The notes below the pieces were generated by a model. It had not been told where the DNA came from. It ran no database searches and worked only from the letters and a program-made list of their open reading frames with translations. Shown in pieces: positions 13,745-22,186 of a stretch of DNA of 64,000 nucleotides. This stretch comes from Phycisphaerae bacterium (lineage in GTDB: Bacteria; Planctomycetota; Phycisphaerae; Phycisphaerales; UBA1924). The stretch lies in NCBI GenBank assembly GCA_030429705.1, contig JAUIES010000004.1, forward strand, positions 1-64,000, read 5' to 3'. Position 1 is the stretch's first letter. Each line of letters opens with the position of its first letter. Both the position numbers and the translations under genes were made by a program.

Positions 13745-14494
13745 CTAGATTTTGCGGGCGATGTAAAATGCGTAGCTGTACCACCGGCCGTAGTCGTGGT
13801 AGAGAGACATTTCTGTCTCTTCCGCCTTGATGATGTTTCGTGCAGCACCGGTGTTTCCGTTCCGCTCCAAGAACGCCGGGAAGGCTGAACGCAGCGGCTC
13901 GTAGTAGTGCTGCTCCCAGCAGCCGCACGGTAAGAAGAAGATCCCGAGCGGTTCGTACCCCTCTTGCTCAACGAGTTGGAGCTTGGCCGAAGCGGTTGCG
14001 ATTCCAGGGTACTCGTTGTTCCAATACGACTCGACTTCAGCGGGGCGATGGGCGGTCGTCCAAGTGATCTCCGAGACGGCTATGACGCCGTCTTGCCGAA
14101 GGTGCCGACGCCACGCGCGAAATCCCTCCACGAACCCCATGTTGTAAATCGCGCCTTCGGACCAGACCAAATCAAACTCTGCATCACTGAACGGCAGCGA
14201 CTCCATCTGCCCGACCATCGGCTCGATGCGATCAGAGATTCCCCTGGCGGTAGCCTCCTCTCGCAAGCGTTCAACGAAAGGCTCAGCGAAGTCAACGGCA
14301 GTGATGTGCCCATTGAGCGTCTCTGCCAAGACGAAGCTGGATGCACCCGTTCCGCTTCCGATGTCGGCGATGGCGAGTTGCTTGTTGGGATTGAGTCGGG
14401 TGAGGTCGATTGCGCGACGCGTCTCTGCATCGCTGCCCGGCCCCTGTCGATCATTCCGAAGGTGTAAGTCGATGAGCAGGTCGAGATCGTTCAT
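13745..14494 (-). CDS. Class I SAM-dependent methyltransferase
   Basis: A 249-residue protein. Motif I is IADIGSGTGASSFVLAE (about residue 42), then the acidic AVDF after strand 2, MVGQMESLPFSDAEFDLVWSEG for motifs II-III, and a C-terminal region with FFLPCGCWEQHYYEPL. It transfers a methyl group from S-adenosylmethionine to an unknown acceptor. It is a single gene on the minus strand, flanked on both sides by copies R2 and R3 of the repeat in direct orientation, so it may have been inserted as a unit. Confidence 0.85.
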   Translation of the reverse strand: MNDLDLLIDLHLRNDRQGPGSDAETRRAIDLTRLNPNKQLAIADIGSGTGASSFVLAETLNGHITAVDFAEPFVERLREEATARGISDRIEPMVGQMESLPFSDAEFDLVWSEGAIYNMGFVEGFRAWRRHLRQDGVIAVSEITWTTAHRPAEVESYWNNEYPGIATASAKLQLVEQEGYEPLGIFFLPCGCWEQHYYEPLRSAFPAFLERNGNTGAARNIIKAEETEMSLYHDYGRWYSYAFYIARKI

Positions 14495-14681: not shown

Positions 14682-14859
14682 AGTGCCACATCGTGATTGA
14701 ACTCACGCGGGACCGCTTGCGCTCCATTGGGTACCACGGCGAACCGATGCTCTCGGGTTCTGCCGTAAGCGGTACTTGCTCTTGCGAGACTCGCCCGCTC
14801 TGAGCGAGTGCCATGACGCGGCAGGGGCAGGTAGCACATGTGGTTTTTCTGTCTGGCTG

Positions 14860-14887
14860 TTGACGAAGCCTGGTGACCGGCTATTCT
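14860..14887 (+). promoter_or_regulatory. Promoter of the histidine operon
   Basis: A -35 box TTGACG (14860-14865), a 16-base spacer and -10 TATTCT (14882-14887). The transcription start is predicted near 14894, essentially at the ATG of the leader peptide (14895). Confidence 0.6.
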
Positions 14888-14894
14888 TCTGCTC

Positions 14895-14960
14895 ATGAAC
14901 TCGTCCCCGGTCCATCATCACCAAGCTCATCTGAACCACCCGCGTGGGTGCCGGTTGTGA
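14895..14960 (+). CDS. hisL: Histidine operon leader peptide (putative attenuator peptide)
   Basis: A 21-codon frame beginning MNSSPVHHHQAHLNH. Five of 21 residues are His: three in a row, then two more within nine codons. It ends at TGA 14958. It lies between a promoter and a strong terminator 33 bases after its stop, directly ahead of hisG, exactly as in known his attenuators. His-tRNA shortage would stall ribosomes in the His codons and change downstream folding. No Shine-Dalgarno sequence is visible and the ATG is within a base or two of the predicted transcript start, so it may be translated leaderlessly. It is too short for most gene finders. Confidence 0.7.
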   Translation: MNSSPVHHHQAHLNHPRGCRL

Positions 14961-14992
14961 CTTTGGTCTGATGGATCCGTGATCTCAGATGA

Positions 14993-15025
14993 AAACGCCG
15001 GCCCCGAGCCGGCGTTTGTCGTTTT
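14993..15025 (+). terminator. Attenuator terminator of the histidine operon
   Basis: A perfect 10-bp stem AAACGCCGGC/GCCGGCGTTT (14993-15002 with 15008-15017) with loop CCCGA, followed by GTCGTTTT. Upstream, CACCC-GCGT-GGGTG (about 14938-14950) can form a hairpin over the end of the leader frame. GCCGG at 14950-14954 can pair with CCGGC at 14998-15002, which would break the terminator stem, so alternative pause and antiterminator folds are possible. Confidence 0.75.
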
Positions 15026-15076
15026 GGGTCCATTCCAAATCGAGCGCCGCGCCCGGGGCCTGAGGAGCCCCGAACG

Positions 15077-15952
15077 ATGACACCGCTTGTCACTGCAAAC
15101 ATGGTCCGGTTCGCCCTTCCCAAAGGCCGGATGCAGAACGATGTACTCCGACTCCTGCGCGAAGCGGGAATTGGTATGTCCGCAACCGCGCGCAACTACA
15201 GGCCGTCGATTTCGCTCGATGGCTTCGAACTCAAGGTGCTTAAGCCGCGTGCGATCGTTGAGATGCTGGATGTCGGTGCTCGGGATTGCGGATTCGCGGG
15301 CGCCGACTGGGTGGTCGAAGCTGGCGCCGATCTTGTCGAACTTCTCGACACCGGGCTGAACCCGGTGCGGCTGATCGCAGCGGCACCCGAATCCTTGCTC
15401 GTTGATGGAGAACTACCCGCTCGTCCGTTGGTCATCGCGTCCGAGTACACCGAGCTCACCCGCCGGTGGATCGAGAGGCAGGGGCTCGACGCAACGCTGC
15501 TCAAGTCGTATGGCGCGACGGAGGTACTGCCCCCGGAGGACGCAGACTGTGTCGTGGACAACACGGCGACCGGATCGACTCTAAAGGCAAACAACCTCAC
15601 GATTATTGACGAGTTGATGACTTCATCCACACGGCTGTACGCGTCGCGCAAGGCGATGGAGAATCCTCAGAAGAGAGTGCGAATCGACCGGCTCACACTG
15701 CTCGTGCGCGCTGTACTGGAAGCCAGGACCCGTGTAATGGTCGAGGTCAATGTCTCGTCGGATTGTCTGGATGCGGTGGTCGAGGCGCTTCCGTGCATGC
15801 GAGAGCCAACTGTGTCGGCGTTGCGATCCGATTCTGGGTTCGCGGTCAAGGCGGCGGTCCCGCGGGCGGATCTGACCCGGGTGATCCCAGCCGTGCGCCG
15901 GAGCGGTGGCACGGACATCGTCGTCACCACTCCCGAGTTGATTGTGCCATGA
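15077..15952 (+). CDS. hisG: ATP phosphoribosyltransferase, long form (HisG)
   Basis: A 291-residue enzyme that joins ATP and PRPP in the first step of histidine synthesis. Motifs are LPKGRMQNDVLRLLREAGI at the N-terminus, DVGARDCGFAGADW, and the PRPP loop DCVVDNTATGSTLKANNL. The C-terminal 75 residues form the regulatory domain of the long, HisZ-independent form, which binds histidine. A ribosome binding site AGGAG (15063-15067) lies partly in the loop of a GGGGC/GCCCC hairpin just ahead of the ATG, so initiation may also be modulated. The stop overlaps the next start. Confidence 0.95.
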   Translation: MTPLVTANMVRFALPKGRMQNDVLRLLREAGIGMSATARNYRPSISLDGFELKVLKPRAIVEMLDVGARDCGFAGADWVVEAGADLVELLDTGLNPVRLIAAAPESLLVDGELPARPLVIASEYTELTRRWIERQGLDATLLKSYGATEVLPPEDADCVVDNTATGSTLKANNLTIIDELMTSSTRLYASRKAMENPQKRVRIDRLTLLVRAVLEARTRVMVEVNVSSDCLDAVVEALPCMREPTVSALRSDSGFAVKAAVPRADLTRVIPAVRRSGGTDIVVTTPELIVP

Positions 15953-17691
15953 TGCCTTCAGAAACGAAATCTGCGCAATGCGTGCTACGACCAGCGGAGC
16001 GACTCCGTGGGTTGTCGCCGTACGAGCCGCCGGCAAAGAGCACCTTTGTTGATCTTTTCCTGGACGCGAACGAGGGGAGGACTGCGGGCAGCACGCTCCG
16101 CAAAGCCCTGTCGAGCTTCGATGGATCGGAACTGTGTCGCTACCCGAGCACGATTGATCTTGAACGTGTGTTGGCCGACAAGTTCGGCATCGCGCCCGAG
16201 CGGGTCGTAGTCACCAACGGTGGCGACGATGCGATCGACCGTGTGTGCCGGGTTTCGCTCGAGCCGGGGCGTGAGCTGCTCATCCACACGCCGACCTTCG
16301 AGATGATCGAGCGGAGCGCTCGTCTCGCGGGCGGTTCGGTCCGCTCAGTTGAGTGGATGGGCGGCCGTTTCCCAGCGTCACGGTTTGCGGGTGTGATCTC
16401 ATCAGAAACCTCGCTGGTTGCGTTGGTGTCGCCCAACAACCCGACGGGTGGGGTCATCTCACGCGGTGAGATGCAGGAAGTCATCGGTGCAGCTCGGAAC
16501 GCCGGTGCACTCGTCATGGTCGATCTCGCGTATATCGATTTTGCGGACAACGACCCGACGCTCGACTTGCTCGACGAACCGAACGTCGTGCTGATCGGCA
16601 CGTTCTCCAAAGCCATGGGATTGGCCGGGGTGCGGGTCGGGTACGCGTTGGCGTCACCCGCCGTCGCGGGCTGGTTGCGGACCGTGGGAGGGCCCTATCC
16701 GGTCTCGGGCGTGTCGGCGGCGCTGGCGGCTGGGACCCTCGCGGGAGAGTCAGCTCAGCGAACGTACATCGATCAGGTTCGCTCGGAGCGAGAGGAGCTC
16801 AAAGAACTACTTCAAGGATACGGCCGAGAAGTAATGGAATCGCAGGCGAACTTTGTGACCGCAAAGTTCAACGATGCGGTGACTATGCAGCGATGCCTGG
16901 AATCGCTGGGAATCGCGGTGCGGGCGTTCCCGGCTCGCCAAGATCTCAAGGGATTCCTTCGCATCACCTTGCCCGGTGATCGTATGGCTTACGAGAGGCT
17001 CCGCCATGCGATACGGACCATATTTGCACCGGAAGCGATTCTGTTCGATCTCGACGGGGTACTTGCGGATGTAAGTGATTCATATCGAAGCTCGATCATC
17101 GAGGCAGCATGCTCGTTTGGTGTTGAGCTGACACACAACGATATCTCCGCCGCGAAGCGTGCCGGCAACGCGAACAACGATTGGGAACTCACAAAGCGAC
17201 TGGTCGAAGATCGCGGCATTACGTGTGAGCTGGCCGAGGTCATTAGTCGGTTCCAGCGGTTCTATGAAGGGACGGACGGCGGGCCGGGCTTGCGCGAGTC
17301 CGAAAGGCTCATCCCTGATCCAACGACGCTGCGCCGATTCGGCGAACGCTTTGTGATGGGAATCGTCACCGGGCGCCCGAGGAAAGAAGCGGAGTGGTTT
17401 CTGAATCGCGCTGGCGTGCGTGGGCTGTTCGCGACGCTAGTTTGCATGGAGGATGCGCCGGCGAAGCCTTCGCCCGAACCGGTGCGGGCTGCGATGAAGG
17501 CGCTCGGTGTCGATCGGGCCTGGATGATCGGTGATACGCCCGATGACATCATGGCCGCCCGCACCGCGCGAGTCGTCCCGATCGGCGTGGTTGCCCCGGG
17601 TGAGGGGAGCGATGCGAGAGCCGCGATGCAGCTCGCCGGTGCTGCGGCGGTTATCAGCAGAATCAGTCAGATCGAGGAGATGATCCGATGA
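15949..17691 (+). CDS. hisC: Histidinol-phosphate aminotransferase fused to a HAD phosphatase
   Basis: A 580-residue fusion. Residues 1-360 are a PLP aminotransferase with the NPTG motif (SPNNPTGG) and PLP lysine in GTFSKAMGLAG (Lys221). Residues about 362-580 are a HAD hydrolase with DLDGV (Asp367/Asp369), GIVTGRP for motif II, Lys in AKPSPEP and a final GDTPDDIMAA. Together they would perform transamination of imidazole acetol phosphate and dephosphorylation of histidinol phosphate. No other histidinol-phosphatase is encoded in this operon, so the HAD half is the natural candidate. The start overlaps the hisG stop (ATGA); an upstream in-frame extension lies inside hisG and is rejected. Confidence 0.92.
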   Translation: MMPSETKSAQCVLRPAERLRGLSPYEPPAKSTFVDLFLDANEGRTAGSTLRKALSSFDGSELCRYPSTIDLERVLADKFGIAPERVVVTNGGDDAIDRVCRVSLEPGRELLIHTPTFEMIERSARLAGGSVRSVEWMGGRFPASRFAGVISSETSLVALVSPNNPTGGVISRGEMQEVIGAARNAGALVMVDLAYIDFADNDPTLDLLDEPNVVLIGTFSKAMGLAGVRVGYALASPAVAGWLRTVGGPYPVSGVSAALAAGTLAGESAQRTYIDQVRSEREELKELLQGYGREVMESQANFVTAKFNDAVTMQRCLESLGIAVRAFPARQDLKGFLRITLPGDRMAYERLRHAIRTIFAPEAILFDLDGVLADVSDSYRSSIIEAACSFGVELTHNDISAAKRAGNANNDWELTKRLVEDRGITCELAEVISRFQRFYEGTDGGPGLRESERLIPDPTTLRRFGERFVMGIVTGRPRKEAEWFLNRAGVRGLFATLVCMEDAPAKPSPEPVRAAMKALGVDRAWMIGDTPDDIMAARTARVVPIGVVAPGEGSDARAAMQLAGAAAVISRISQIEEMIR

Positions 17692-18278
17692 GCAACCGAA
17701 CCGCAACCATTCAGAGAGCCACGCGCGAAACACGGGTCGAGGCCGCCCTCGATCTCGACGGGACCGGACAGGCGTCCATCAGCACAAGGCTTGGGTTCCT
17801 TGACCACATGCTGACCGCGTTGGCGACGCATGCGCGGATCGACATAGAACTCGAATGCACTGGCGACCTTGAAGTTGACGATCACCACACTATTGAAGAC
17901 TGCGCGATCGTGCTCGGCGCAGCCGTACTGGAGGCGATCGGCCAGAAGCGAGGCATCCGGCGTTTCGCTTCCGCCTACGCGCCGCTCGATGAATCGCTCG
18001 CGCGGGTTGTCGTTGACATCTCGGGAAGGCCCTTCGCAGGGATCAATCTTGATCTCAAACGCGACGCCATCGGTGCCGTGAGTTGTGAGAACATCGGGCA
18101 TTTCTTTTCATCGTTTGCCATGGCAGCGAGACTCACGCTGCACGTTGACGTGTTGCGCGGCGAGAACGATCACCACAGGGCAGAAGCCGCGTTCAAAGCA
18201 CTCGCGCTCGCGTTGCGCGAAGCAGTCGTGGTCGACGCTGGCTGCGATGTGATTCCATCGACGAAGGGGCTGCTGTGA
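17688..18278 (+). CDS. hisB: Imidazoleglycerol-phosphate dehydratase (HisB, monofunctional)
   Basis: A 196-residue enzyme that dehydrates imidazole glycerol phosphate to imidazole acetol phosphate. Signature metal-binding motifs are present: LGFLDHM, DDHHTIED (residues 63-70) and ENDHHRAEAAFKAL. The length is the usual one for the monofunctional form, so the phosphatase of the E. coli bifunctional HisB is not here but apparently in the HAD half of the upstream fusion. It overlaps both neighbours by 4 bases. Confidence 0.95.
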   Translation: MSNRTATIQRATRETRVEAALDLDGTGQASISTRLGFLDHMLTALATHARIDIELECTGDLEVDDHHTIEDCAIVLGAAVLEAIGQKRGIRRFASAYAPLDESLARVVVDISGRPFAGINLDLKRDAIGAVSCENIGHFFSSFAMAARLTLHVDVLRGENDHHRAEAAFKALALALREAVVVDAGCDVIPSTKGLL

Positions 18279-18889
18279 TGGAGCCGATCGTGATCGTCTC
18301 GACGGGTGTTGCCAATATCGCATCGGTCTCCGCGGCGATCCGCCGGTGCGGTTTCGATGTCGAGTTGACCGATGAAGCGGCACGCGTCAGCGATGCCGAG
18401 CGTGTGGTGCTCCCGGGTGTTGGGTCGTTTGAAGCTGGGATGGAGTGTCTTCGCGACCGCGGGCTTGACAGCGTCATCGGAGATCGCGTTGCGGCGCAGC
18501 GTCCGCTCTTGGCGATCTGCCTTGGGCTGCAACTTCTTTGCAAATCATCGGAGGAATCTTTGGGAGTTGACGGCATCGGCGCGATTGAGGCGGACGTTCG
18601 CCGCGTCCCAGTTGGTATGCGTGTGCCGCAGTTCGGGTGGAATCGCGTCGAAGTATCAGAGGCATCGGCGATGGAAAGCGGGTACGCCTACTACGCCAAC
18701 TCCTTCTGCATCATTGACCGTCCCGATGGCTGGACGGTCGCGACATCGACGTACGGCCGCGAGTTCGTTGCGGCGTTGGTGCGAGGCCCAGTCCTGGCGT
18801 GCCAGTTTCACCCCGAACTCTCTGGTACCTGGGGCTCCCAGCTCATAAGGCGATGGCTGATGCGGGAGGAGGTTGGCTCGACATGCTGA
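18275..18889 (+). CDS. hisH: Imidazole glycerol phosphate synthase, glutaminase subunit (HisH)
   Basis: A 204-residue class I glutamine amidotransferase. The catalytic Cys is in LLAICLGLQLL (about residue 84), with His and Glu in ACQFHPELSG near the C-terminus; the substrate-side PGVGSFEAGM motif is present. It supplies ammonia from glutamine to HisF. The C-terminus overlaps the start of hisF by 7 bases, which fits the two subunits being made together. ATGATG at the start gives two possible initiators; the first overlaps the hisB stop. Confidence 0.95.
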   Translation: MMEPIVIVSTGVANIASVSAAIRRCGFDVELTDEAARVSDAERVVLPGVGSFEAGMECLRDRGLDSVIGDRVAAQRPLLAICLGLQLLCKSSEESLGVDGIGAIEADVRRVPVGMRVPQFGWNRVEVSEASAMESGYAYYANSFCIIDRPDGWTVATSTYGREFVAALVRGPVLACQFHPELSGTWGSQLIRRWLMREEVGSTC

Positions 18890-19641
18890 CAAAGCGGATT
18901 ATTCCGTGTCTCGATGTTCGAGACGGGCGCGTGGTTAAGGGTGTGCGATTTACGGGGCTCCGTGACGCGGGTGATCCGGTCGAGCAGGCTGCACGCTACC
19001 AATCGCAGGGGGCGGACGAGATTGTCATTCTGGATGTGTCGGCGACGCCCGAAGGGCGGGCAACCGGAATCGAGACTGTCGCCGCCTTGAGAGAAGTGCT
19101 CTCGATCCCATTAACCGTGGGTGGCGGGGTACGCTCGGTTGCTGATGCGGAGCGACTTTTGGGTGCCGGCGCGGATAAGGTCGCTGTGAATACCGCGGCC
19201 GTCGAGCGTCCTGCGATTCTTTCCGAGTTGGCGCGACGCACCGGTTCGCAATGTGTTGTGCTCGCGATCGACGCGGCTCGCCAACCGGGTCAATCTGGAT
19301 GGGAGGTCGTGACACGATCCGGCGTGAATCGCTCTGGCCTCGATGCCGTTCAATGGGCACGCGATGCCCAGCAGCTCGGCGTAGGCGAGGTTCTGCTGAC
19401 AAGCTGGGATCGCGATGGCACGGGCGACGGGTACGACCTCGAACTTCTCGGCGCGATGTCGGCGGCAGTGGATATCCCCATCATCGCGTCGGGCGGTGCG
19501 GCGGGATCTGACCACATGCTGGCGGCATTCCAGGCGGGCGCGGATGCAGTGCTCGCGGCATCGATATTTCATGATGGAATCAACACGGTCACAGATATCA
19601 AAGCGTCGCTTGCAGCGAAAAATGTGGAGGTGCGGTTGTGA
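18883..19641 (+). CDS. hisF: Imidazole glycerol phosphate synthase, cyclase subunit (HisF)
   Basis: A 252-residue TIM barrel. It starts MLTKRIIPCLDVRDGRVVKG, with catalytic Asp in CLDV (about residue 11) and the second in AIDAARQ. Phosphate-binding loops are VGGGVRS and IASGGAAGSD. It cyclises PRFAR with ammonia from HisH to give imidazole glycerol phosphate and AICAR. I chose the ATG at 18883, preceded by GGAGGAGG, because a longer in-frame extension lies wholly inside hisH. It overlaps the next gene by 4 bases. Confidence 0.95.
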   Translation: MLTKRIIPCLDVRDGRVVKGVRFTGLRDAGDPVEQAARYQSQGADEIVILDVSATPEGRATGIETVAALREVLSIPLTVGGGVRSVADAERLLGAGADKVAVNTAAVERPAILSELARRTGSQCVVLAIDAARQPGQSGWEVVTRSGVNRSGLDAVQWARDAQQLGVGEVLLTSWDRDGTGDGYDLELLGAMSAAVDIPIIASGGAAGSDHMLAAFQAGADAVLAASIFHDGINTVTDIKASLAAKNVEVRL

Positions 19642-20921
19642 TTATCCCTTCGATTGACTTGATGAATGGTAATGCGGTTCAGCTCATCGGCGGTGCGGAG
19701 AAGGTGCTCGATGCAGGCGATCCACGCACGATCGCAGACCACTTCGGTCTCGTCGGAGAAATCGCGGTGATTGACCTTGATGCCGCCCTCGGGCGCGGCT
19801 CAAACGAGTCTGTCGTTCGTGACCTCATCTCGCGTGCGCCCTGCCGTGTAGGAGGCGGGATACGTGATGCGGGAACGGCAACTCGCTGGCTCGACGCCGG
19901 GGCGAAGAAGGTCATCCTCGGCACCGCCGCATGCCCAGAGGTGCTCAAGGAACTGCCGCGAGAGCGGGTGATCGTCGCGCTAGATGCCCGCGACGGGGAG
20001 GTCGTGACTGAGGGGTGGACGAAGGGCACCGGGGCCTCGGTCGAGGATCGGATCACGGAACTCCGCGACTATGCCGGTGGATTCCTCGTGACCTTTGTTG
20101 AGCGAGAAGGGCGGATGCAGGGGCTGCCCATGGACCGCGTAGGACGGCTCGTTCGGCTGGCAGGACCAGCCCGATTGACCGTCGCGGGCGGCGTGCGGAC
20201 ACCCGATGACATCACGGCGGCGGACCGTGCGGGTGCAGACGCCCAGGTTGGCATGGCCCTGTATACGAGAGCATTCGATCTGGCTGATGGGTTCTGTGCT
20301 CCCCTTCGATCTGACCGGCCCGATGGACTCTGGCCAACAGTCGTGACGGATCCGTCGGGGCGAGCACTCGGGTTGACGTATTCGAGTATTGAATCAGTTC
20401 GTGCAGCGTTTGAAATGCGGCGCGGCGTGTACTATTCACGTTCGCGTCAGGGTGTGTGGAAGAAAGGTGAGACCAGCGGCGCTACCCAGGAACTGCTCGC
20501 AGTCACAACCGACTGCGACCGCGACGCCTTGCGGTTCACAGTCCGGCAACGCGGCCGTGGGTTCTGCCACCTCGGGACAGATACTTGCTTTGGGCAGCTC
20601 GCTGGATTCGGTGCTCTCGACCGGACCGTTGCTTCTCGCACAGCTGATGCGCCATCCGGTTCGTATACGGCGCGACTGCTCAACGATCCCGAGTTGCTCA
20701 AGAGCAAGTTGATCGAAGAATCGACCGAGCTCATCGAGTCTTCAACACCGAGTGGTGCCGCAGGCGAAGCGGCGGATGTCATCTATTTTGCGGCTGTTGC
20801 CGCGCACTCTCGCGGGGCATCGCTCGCTGATGTCGAACGCTGTCTCGACCGTCGCTCGTTGCGCGTGACCCGGAGGCGCGGCGATGCCAAGCTCGCACAA
20901 AAGAAGGAAGTGGAGTCATGA
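19638..20921 (+). CDS. hisA: HisA-HisI-HisE trifunctional fusion
   Basis: A 427-residue protein with three enzymes in one chain. Residues 1-228 are HisA, the ProFAR isomerase barrel (MIIPSIDLMNG, VGGGIRD, VALDARDGEV, VAGGVRT). Residues about 229-335 are HisI, PRA-CH (SRSRQGVWKKGETSGATQ, metal ligands in TTDCDRDA, then FCHLGTDTCF). Residues about 341-415 are HisE, PRA-PH (LLKSKLIEESTELIES, GEAADVIYFAAV). They catalyse steps 2, 3 and 4 in sequence. Bifunctional HisIE is common, but I know of no widespread fusion with HisA in front. The GTG start overlaps the hisF stop. The frame is continuous, with no sign of a stop or frameshift between domains. Confidence 0.92.
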   Translation: MIIPSIDLMNGNAVQLIGGAEKVLDAGDPRTIADHFGLVGEIAVIDLDAALGRGSNESVVRDLISRAPCRVGGGIRDAGTATRWLDAGAKKVILGTAACPEVLKELPRERVIVALDARDGEVVTEGWTKGTGASVEDRITELRDYAGGFLVTFVEREGRMQGLPMDRVGRLVRLAGPARLTVAGGVRTPDDITAADRAGADAQVGMALYTRAFDLADGFCAPLRSDRPDGLWPTVVTDPSGRALGLTYSSIESVRAAFEMRRGVYYSRSRQGVWKKGETSGATQELLAVTTDCDRDALRFTVRQRGRGFCHLGTDTCFGQLAGFGALDRTVASRTADAPSGSYTARLLNDPELLKSKLIEESTELIESSTPSGAAGEAADVIYFAAVAAHSRGASLADVERCLDRRSLRVTRRRGDAKLAQKKEVES

Positions 20922-22186
20922 CCCTCCTAAAACAGATTTCGCCTGATCGGATTGCGCGAGAGCTCCGCCCGCCCGTGGATCAAACCACACTCGCGGCTAC
21001 AGACGAGATCGTGCGGAGCGTCCGTTCAGACGGTTCGGCTTCCATCAGGAGCTATGCCGAGCGGTTCGGGGAGCGTGCTCCGTGCGATCCGCTCGTGCTG
21101 GGGCGCAAGGAGATGCGAGCGGCGCTCGACGCGATTTCTCCAGATAATGTCAGACTTCTAGAACGGACCGCCGAGCGGATTCATGTCTTCGCACAGTCGC
21201 AGCGTGATGCTATCAGGGAGCTTGATGTCGCGATTCCCGGCGGGCGGGCAGGTCACACCATCGAGCCGGTCGAATCCGCCGGATGCTACGCGCCAGCGGG
21301 GCGGTATCCGCTGCCGTCCTCGGCGCTCATGACGGCGGTGACAGCCCGCGTCGCGGGGTGCGATCGAGTCGTGGTTGCTTCCCCCGGTGCGCAGCCCATC
21401 ATGCTCGCGGCGGCAGCGATTGCTGGAGCGGATGAGTTCCTAGCGGTCGGCGGTGCCCATGCGATCGCCGCGATGGCCTACGGCTGTGTGGAAATGCAAG
21501 CCTGCGATGTGATTGTGGGGCCCGGAAACAAATGGGTCACCGCGGCCAAGCAACTCGTCAACGGCGTCGTGGGGATCGACATGCTCGCTGGGCCGTCCGA
21601 ACTGCTCGTCATCGCCGATGACTCAGCGGACACTGATCTTATCGCAGCCGATCTGCTCGCCCAGGCTGAGCACGACACGGACGCGGTCCCGATGCTCGTC
21701 ACCACGTCCTGCGCGGTCGCGGCCGCCGTCGAGGAGGCGTTGGCTGTCAGGCTGGAAACGCTCCCGTCGCGAGCCACGGCTCTTGAGGCGCTCGAAAATG
21801 GGTTTGTCTGCGTCGTTGAGTCTCTGGACGAGGCCCGTGCAGCCGCAGATACGATCGCGGCCGAGCACTTGGAGATCTTGACGGACGATCCTCAGCAGTT
21901 TGCCGACGCGGTTCGCAACGCCGGGGCGTTGTTCATAGGAGCGGCGAGCGCTGAAGTGTTCGGAGACTACGGCGCGGGCCCGAATCACACACTCCCAACT
22001 GGAGGAACCGCCAGATTTCAGGCAGGCCTTTCCGTCATGCACTTCCTGAGACTGCGGAGTTGGATGCAGATCGACAACACGAGCCAAGCACGAGATCTCT
22101 GTAGTGATGCCCGTCGCCTCGCAGGAATCGAGGGTCTTCTCGGGCACGCCGCCTCAGTGCAAGCCAGAAAACTCTGGAGCGCGTGA
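20918..22186 (+). CDS. hisD: Histidinol dehydrogenase (HisD)
   Basis: A 422-residue zinc enzyme that oxidises histidinol to histidine in two NAD-dependent steps. Recognisable stretches are [67 protein letters not shown] and [17 protein letters not shown], which hold the catalytic Glu/His and zinc ligands. Overlaps the trifunctional gene by 4 bases. As the last gene of the operon it is followed within 110 bases by a strong terminator inside repeat R4. Confidence 0.96.

Follow-up and report, generated by a model that had tools for sequence, protein, structure and literature searches.

The DNA ahead of the histidine operon in the window (the whole 64,000-nt stretch analyzed here, from the 3.49-Mb, 8-contig assembly of genome G000) raises the question of whether a short His-rich frame and a terminator control the operon and, if so, how a frame lying so close to its promoter is read. 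Comparison of the sequence with its relatives indicates that the locus is very probably a ribosome-mediated transcription attenuator of the his operon, with a leader whose 5' untranslated region is absent or nearly so.

All features of the locus lie on the plus strand unless stated. A promoter-like sequence, consisting of TTGACG (14860 to 14865) and TATTCT (14882 to 14887) with a 16-nt spacer, ends 7 nt before the ATG at 14895; the -35 element was read directly, and relatives share the placement of its TTGAC. The ATG opens a probably leaderless leader peptide gene of 21 codons, five of them His (14895 to 14960; MNSSPVHHHQAHLNHPRGCRL), which ends with TGA at 14958 to 14960. Thirty-two bases separate this stop codon from a terminator hairpin at 14993 to 15017, a perfect 10-bp stem with the left arm AAACGCCGGC (14993 to 15002), the loop CCCGA, and the right arm GCCGGCGTTT (15008 to 15017), followed by a T-rich tail (GTCGTTTT). 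The frame, its His codons, and its distance to the stem were read exactly as a preliminary description of this DNA had given them. The first gene of the operon is hisG (15077 to 15952), which matched TIGR00070 (142.8 bits) and HisG_C-term (75.7 bits), both above the cut-off. Profile models placed the remaining genes at 15952 to 22186, and the resulting order of seven genes (hisG, hisC+HAD, hisB, hisH, hisF, hisA+hisIE, hisD) agrees with the complete his operon described earlier. A model above the curated cut-off was found for each of hisG, hisB, hisH, hisF, hisIE, and hisD; the best hisC and hisA models scored below theirs (226 against 277 bits and 148 against 229, respectively). The locus thus holds a frame rich in codons cognate to its operon and a terminator between leader and hisG, as expected of an attenuator. 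The hisC frame (15952 to 17691) carries a C-terminal HAD domain (TIGR01548), presumably the phosphatase of the pathway, and hisA and hisIE share one frame (19638 to 20921). Because of these two fusions, the seven genes may cover the whole his pathway.

Conservation of the leader was investigated in the same family, where HisG (PF01634) was found in 86 of 163 genomes, G000 included, from 41 genera. Upstream regions were anchored in 84 genomes (G149 and G062 were lost), and G127, with only 64 nt upstream, was dropped, leaving 83. At least four His within 10 codons occurred before hisG in 79 of the 83 upstreams, the window's included, compared with 32 of 1,660 dinucleotide-shuffled upstreams, and at least five His in 75/83 compared with 2/1,660. 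The four upstreams below the lower threshold were those of G109, G111, G112, and G012. The 79 leaders were 14 to 28 codons long (median, 20) with 4 to 9 His (median, 6) and a gap of 21 to 50 from stop to stem (median, 34). Under a permissive rule, a hairpin was present 3' of the stop in all 79 leaders, although weak in G009, G034, and G122. This family scan had been proposed as a test that could refute the attenuator, and both the His-rich frame and the terminator proved to be kept upstream of hisG. Because the genomes are related, the counts across the family are not independent events. Two of them, G074 and G160, have leader regions identical to those of records labeled Phycisphaeraceae (L028) and Phycisphaerales (L030), respectively, and the assignment of the window's genome to the planctomycetes is based on these two. 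Among 36 distinct genomes of the class outside the family, which have a different HisG type (11 loci plus the 30 best-scoring of 169 non-family genomes with HisG, 5 shared), the maximum was 2 His in 10 codons upstream.

These counts bear on the simplest alternative, a chance open frame beside an ordinary terminator. Short frames are common, and the 32 shuffles above reached four His in 10 codons by chance; conservation in 79 of 83 upstreams, however, together with the covariation in two alternative folds described below, makes this explanation close to inconceivable. The terminator itself also argues against it. The nearest upstream frame (13745 to 14494) encodes a methyltransferase (Pfam) on the opposite strand, and two overlapping plus-strand frames in the same region matched no Pfam family; the terminator is therefore not likely to end the transcription of an upstream gene.

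Two side observations were made in the family. In one genus (G109, G110, G111, and G112), the terminator was present in all four genomes and the leader frame had few His codons, perhaps reflecting a decaying or retuned attenuator; G110 retains the TTGAC promoter. In addition, no HisG match was obtained in 77 of the 163 genomes, or in 52 of the 112 with at least 90% completeness and at most 5% contamination, a sign that many family members may be auxotrophic for histidine or use another route.

Leader residues other than His showed no protein-like conservation. In 11 overlapping close pairs, 11 synonymous and 44 nonsynonymous codon changes were counted in the leaders, with 26 differences at the first, 29 at the second, and 32 at the third codon position. 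With the other residues unconserved, the case for leader translation rests on the His codons and not on a protein-like pattern. Short His-rich peptides can bind metals, and the frame might therefore encode a functional peptide, for example a metal-binding one, with the terminator merely tuning expression. We regard this as very improbable: beyond the His run the residues are unconserved and the length varies (14 to 28 codons), the leader is absent before the other HisG type in the 36 class genomes, and the His codons have third bases adapted to an RNA pairing, as described below.

Three mutually exclusive pairings were predicted for the attenuator, namely 1:2, 2:3 (the antiterminator), and 3:4 (the terminator). 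In the window, region 1 is the leader with its His codons (14901 to 14933), delimited by fold, permutation, and third-base tests and paired with 14952 to 14992 in the free-RNA fold. Region 2 (14951 to 14979), assigned from folds and covariation, comprises the leader end and the post-stop segment, with region 1 or region 3 as its partner. Region 3 (14985 to 15002; sequence and folds) is the linker end plus the left arm of the terminator, and region 4 (15008 to 15025; sequence and relatives) is the right arm plus the T-rich tail. A GCCGG segment in the leader had been proposed to pair with the left arm of the terminator. This segment (14950 to 14954) lies near the leader end and is part of the predicted antiterminator, in which 14951 to 14955 pairs with 14997 to 15001 and 14966 to 14971 with 14985 to 14990. 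In 78 of the 79 folds, the exception being G009, the left arm formed at least 4 pairs with the leader-end region, which bears out the proposed alternative fold. Folds from the leader end to the left arm had a mean z of -2.0 compared with dinucleotide shuffles. An exact GCCGG stood near the stop in 45 of 79 leaders, with variants in the remainder; because it occupies different reading frames, and follows directly after the stop in G180, G139, and G068, conservation seems to act on the nucleotides and not on the peptide.

Duplex permutation tests were performed on 78 leaders, with G009 left out and 5,000 permutations. The mean energy of each leader's own duplex was -20.24 kcal/mol for R2:R3 (permuted, -18.34 kcal/mol) and -19.29 kcal/mol for R1:R2 (permuted, -17.32 kcal/mol), and none of the 5,000 permutations was as good in either test. 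In a few sequences, changes in the left arm, such as G to A or G to C, were accompanied by matching partners at the leader end as well as in the right arm. Covariation in both folds, which the preliminary description had suggested as a check, was thus observed across the relatives. When the third bases of the His codons in the 78 leaders were redrawn, 0 of 1,000 trials equaled the R1:R2 pairing, and when they were shuffled, 1 of 1,000 did. Third-base choice in the His codons is therefore tuned to the 1:2 pairing. In the free-RNA fold, the leader His codons pair with sequence that surrounds and follows the stop. The predicted protective pairing is thus one between the His codons and the stop-codon region, a feature absent from the preliminary description. 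Mutually exclusive antiterminator and protective pairings, a further hallmark of an attenuator, were found at the level of predicted folds and covariation.

The terminator was present in the minimum-energy fold of the free RNA in 77 of 79 leaders. With a ribosome stalled at the third codon of the His cluster, the minimum-energy folds contained the antiterminator in 30 leaders and the terminator in 49. Since this equilibrium fold prefers the terminator in 49 of 79 leaders, the attenuator model requires that the antiterminator would form first, by the order of transcription. With the ribosome at the stop, the terminator formed in 79/79, a result that is nearly built in because the fold begins after the stop and omits the leader end of region 2.

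According to the proposed mechanism, RNA polymerase would start at or a few bases from the leader AUG, so that a ribosome could engage the 5'-terminal start codon as it emerges. When charged tRNA-His is ample, the ribosome would reach the stop and cover region 2, and the terminator (3:4) would form. When histidine is short, the ribosome would stall on the His codons of region 1, region 2 would become available to the left arm of the terminator (2:3), and transcription would continue into hisG. Without a ribosome, region 2 would be held by region 1, giving the terminator by default. The conserved His frame, the terminator, the exclusive predicted folds, and the covariation support this hisL-type interpretation, which had been put forward earlier.

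The position of the promoter bears on how the leader is read. Leader starts were picked blind to promoters and comprised 67 ATG and 12 GTG codons. TTGAC started at -40 to -33 from the leader start in 64 of the 79 family leaders; on the same upstreams, it was so placed at 63 of 78 leader starts compared with 7 of 1,160 other RTG codons. TANNNT ended 5 to 11 nt before the start in 50/79 leaders compared with 14/1,166 other RTG codons, and both elements were in place in 39/79 compared with 0/1,166. The predicted transcript start therefore falls, in most relatives, on the leader start codon or close to it, as had been noted for the window. TTGAC was absent from the expected place in 15 of the 79 leaders, and 24 had no TANNNT within 70 nt. 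A correlation of 0.89 between the -35 and -10 offsets was discarded as evidence, because the -10 element had been sought at a fixed range from the -35 element. A whole-genome search with a strict leaderless-promoter pattern gave 6 matches compared with 9 in the reversed control, showing no excess. The lack of a visible Shine-Dalgarno (SD) sequence, also noted earlier, agreed with the picture over 78 leaders: the SD signal at leader starts was at background, with an anti-SD energy of -2.0 compared with -2.3 at random sites and an SD core in 8/78 compared with 13%. For hisG, an SD core preceded some plausible start in 59/78, which, as the best of several starts, gives a rough contrast.

Nineteen non-family loci with leaders were also examined. 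Five had an SD core (L038 from Sulfidibacter, L039, L166, L167, and L170), with the -35 element at -47 to -61. Ten had no SD core (L029, L031, L032, L040, L164, L165, L172, L173, L174, and L189), with the -35 element, in the variants TTGAC, TTGCC, TTGCA, or TTGAT, at -35 to -39; L029, L032, and L040 are "Proteobacteria" by their record labels only. A 16S rRNA search in eight genomes behind named loci gave no match, and the control search missed some known genomes as well (9 of 14 gave a match). A second -35 match lay elsewhere in L032, L039, L040, and L167. L168 gave no start, L171 and L177 had no -35 element, and L169 had it at -44, or at -38 if translation begins at an in-frame ATG two codons upstream. 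This association between SD presence and promoter distance provides good, if indirect, evidence that the transcripts are leaderless. Among the 17 non-family leaders with a hairpin, the antiterminator had at least 6 pairs in 12 and at most 2 in 5 (L031, L165, L167, L169, and L172).

The five SD-led loci show that leadered forms of the attenuator exist, and with the exact TTGAC missing from its expected place in 15 of 79 family leaders, they lend some weight to a his attenuator with an ordinary short 5' leader, in which transcription starts further upstream or the ribosome binds without an SD sequence (e.g., through protein S1). We consider this unlikely for the window, because the spacing of TTGAC and the -10 element leaves at most a few leader bases in most family members and the SD signal is at background. 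Leaderless reading, in the window and in the family, thus appears indirectly well supported. We infer a transcript start at the leader start codon, translation of the leader, and a response to histidine.

Next, the origin of the operon was considered with a HisG tree (70 rows, quick method, SH-aLRT support only), hisG being the sole operon gene treed. HisG of the family grouped with that of the Acidobacteriota sample and not with that of sister Planctomycetota families; support was 100 for the split from seven outgroup HisG proteins, sister Phycisphaerales among them. The sample covered the phylum of G407 (Sulfidibacter corallicola, L038), with a HisG match in 121 of 199 genomes, and 13 of the 16 best-scoring HisG genes had at least four His in 10 codons upstream. 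Five loci on a nearby branch, labeled Geminicoccaceae or Alphaproteobacteria (L033, L034, L035, L036, and L041), carry the family's HisG type (55 to 61% identity) and had no His leader, perhaps because the attenuator was lost after transfer. The operon and attenuator thus likely moved between phyla, in either direction. We lean, by a small margin, toward one his attenuator that the Phycisphaerales family and Acidobacteriota share through operon transfer, that changed between SD-led and leaderless initiation with its three-way RNA logic preserved, and in which the His codons serve as both sensor and RNA arm 1, with leaderless initiation nearly fixed in the planctomycete family. If so, this fixation would mean that the switch is timed in part by the entry of the ribosome at the nascent 5' end.

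Known elements were searched with Rfam. No match was obtained at the window's leader stretch at the gathering threshold, at 14840 to 15100 at E values up to 1, or at 20 relative loci at gathering. The covariance model of the His leader family, presumably RF00514, matched neither the window stretch nor the 20 relatives, and no T-box riboswitch match was found in the window's leader stretch. In its available portions, the open-access literature gave no his attenuator for Planctomycetota or Acidobacteriota. A multi-phylum survey was reportedly made by Lopatovskaya and others in 2010.

The available text of the papers cited below allows comparison with known systems. In E. coli and S. typhimurium, hisL precedes the his operon as a short leader containing a His run, together with a terminator and antiterminator (PMC3896937, PMC9413887). 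The window locus shares this layout; unlike hisL, its leader appears leaderless and it has no Rfam match. In the window, arm 1 consists of the His codons. Firmicutes His attenuators (Bacillus cereus group, Eubacteriales, and Erysipelotrichales) are comparative-genomics predictions with a similar His-rich leader, terminator, and antiterminator in another phylum, and the available portions of PMC9413887 make no leaderless claim for them; His leaders are also described in bacilli (PMC2965389). Leaderless leaders precede amino-acid biosynthesis or tRNA-ligase genes in Streptomyces lividans (LeuL1, LeuL2, TrpL1, IlvL, and others), some with a Rho-independent terminator, but these concern other amino acids in another phylum, and no his attenuator is described in the available text (PMC8079986). 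The attenuator RNA of Sinorhizobium meliloti trpL (peTrpL) likewise has the leader ATG as its 5' end, in this case for tryptophan in an alphaproteobacterium (PMC7298713). Mycobacterial poly-cysteine attenuators (Canestrari 2020, via PMC9031893) are also leaderless short frames with contiguous cognate codons, and are said to regulate translation of downstream genes. Because leaderless attenuators are already known for other amino acids, the his case is a variant of a known principle. For other phyla, the accessible portions report almost no predicted Acidobacteria attenuators with known functions (PMC2965389) and no RNA elements upstream of the histidine operons of Actinobacteria (PMC1262725). 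Planctomycetes in general are described as having leader genes close to structural genes (PMC4833913), and the one planctomycete of another study was grouped with species that have few SD genes and show signals of leaderless mRNA or S1 (PMC5397173). As far as these texts go, ribosome-mediated his attenuation belongs to Proteobacteria and some Firmicutes, and little was found on leader-peptide control in Planctomycetota. The present comparison suggests that hisG is usually preceded by an attenuator, mostly leaderless, throughout a Planctomycetota family, and that the same arrangement occurs in part of the Acidobacteriota sample. With natural leaderless and SD versions at hand, the effect of ribosome loading on the timing of transcription-translation coupling becomes testable.

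Several minor observations were made alongside. The preliminary description had placed the hisG ribosome binding site in a second hairpin. The inverted repeat GGGGC/GCCCC is indeed present there, but the window fold leaves most of the SD sequence unpaired (z, +0.7), and a regulatory role was unsupported; at least three-fourths of the SD sequence was paired in 32 of 59 relatives (mean z, -1.06), and the hairpin was set aside as a weak candidate for a second control. In G000, no frame with two or more Trp was found in 440 nt around the start of the trpE frame. The G000 genome gave no match to acetolactate synthase (TIGR00118, ilvB), and its best leuA match (53 bits) was below the cut-off, which together point to possible branched-chain amino acid auxotrophy. 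Finally, a His leader (MFVLHHHSVHHHPEYVGPAEFCAI) was also seen in L189, whose genome belongs to the G407 phylum and carries the other HisG type. This leader, with its hairpin and T-run, lies about 400 nt upstream of hisG and probably stands ahead of a different gene.
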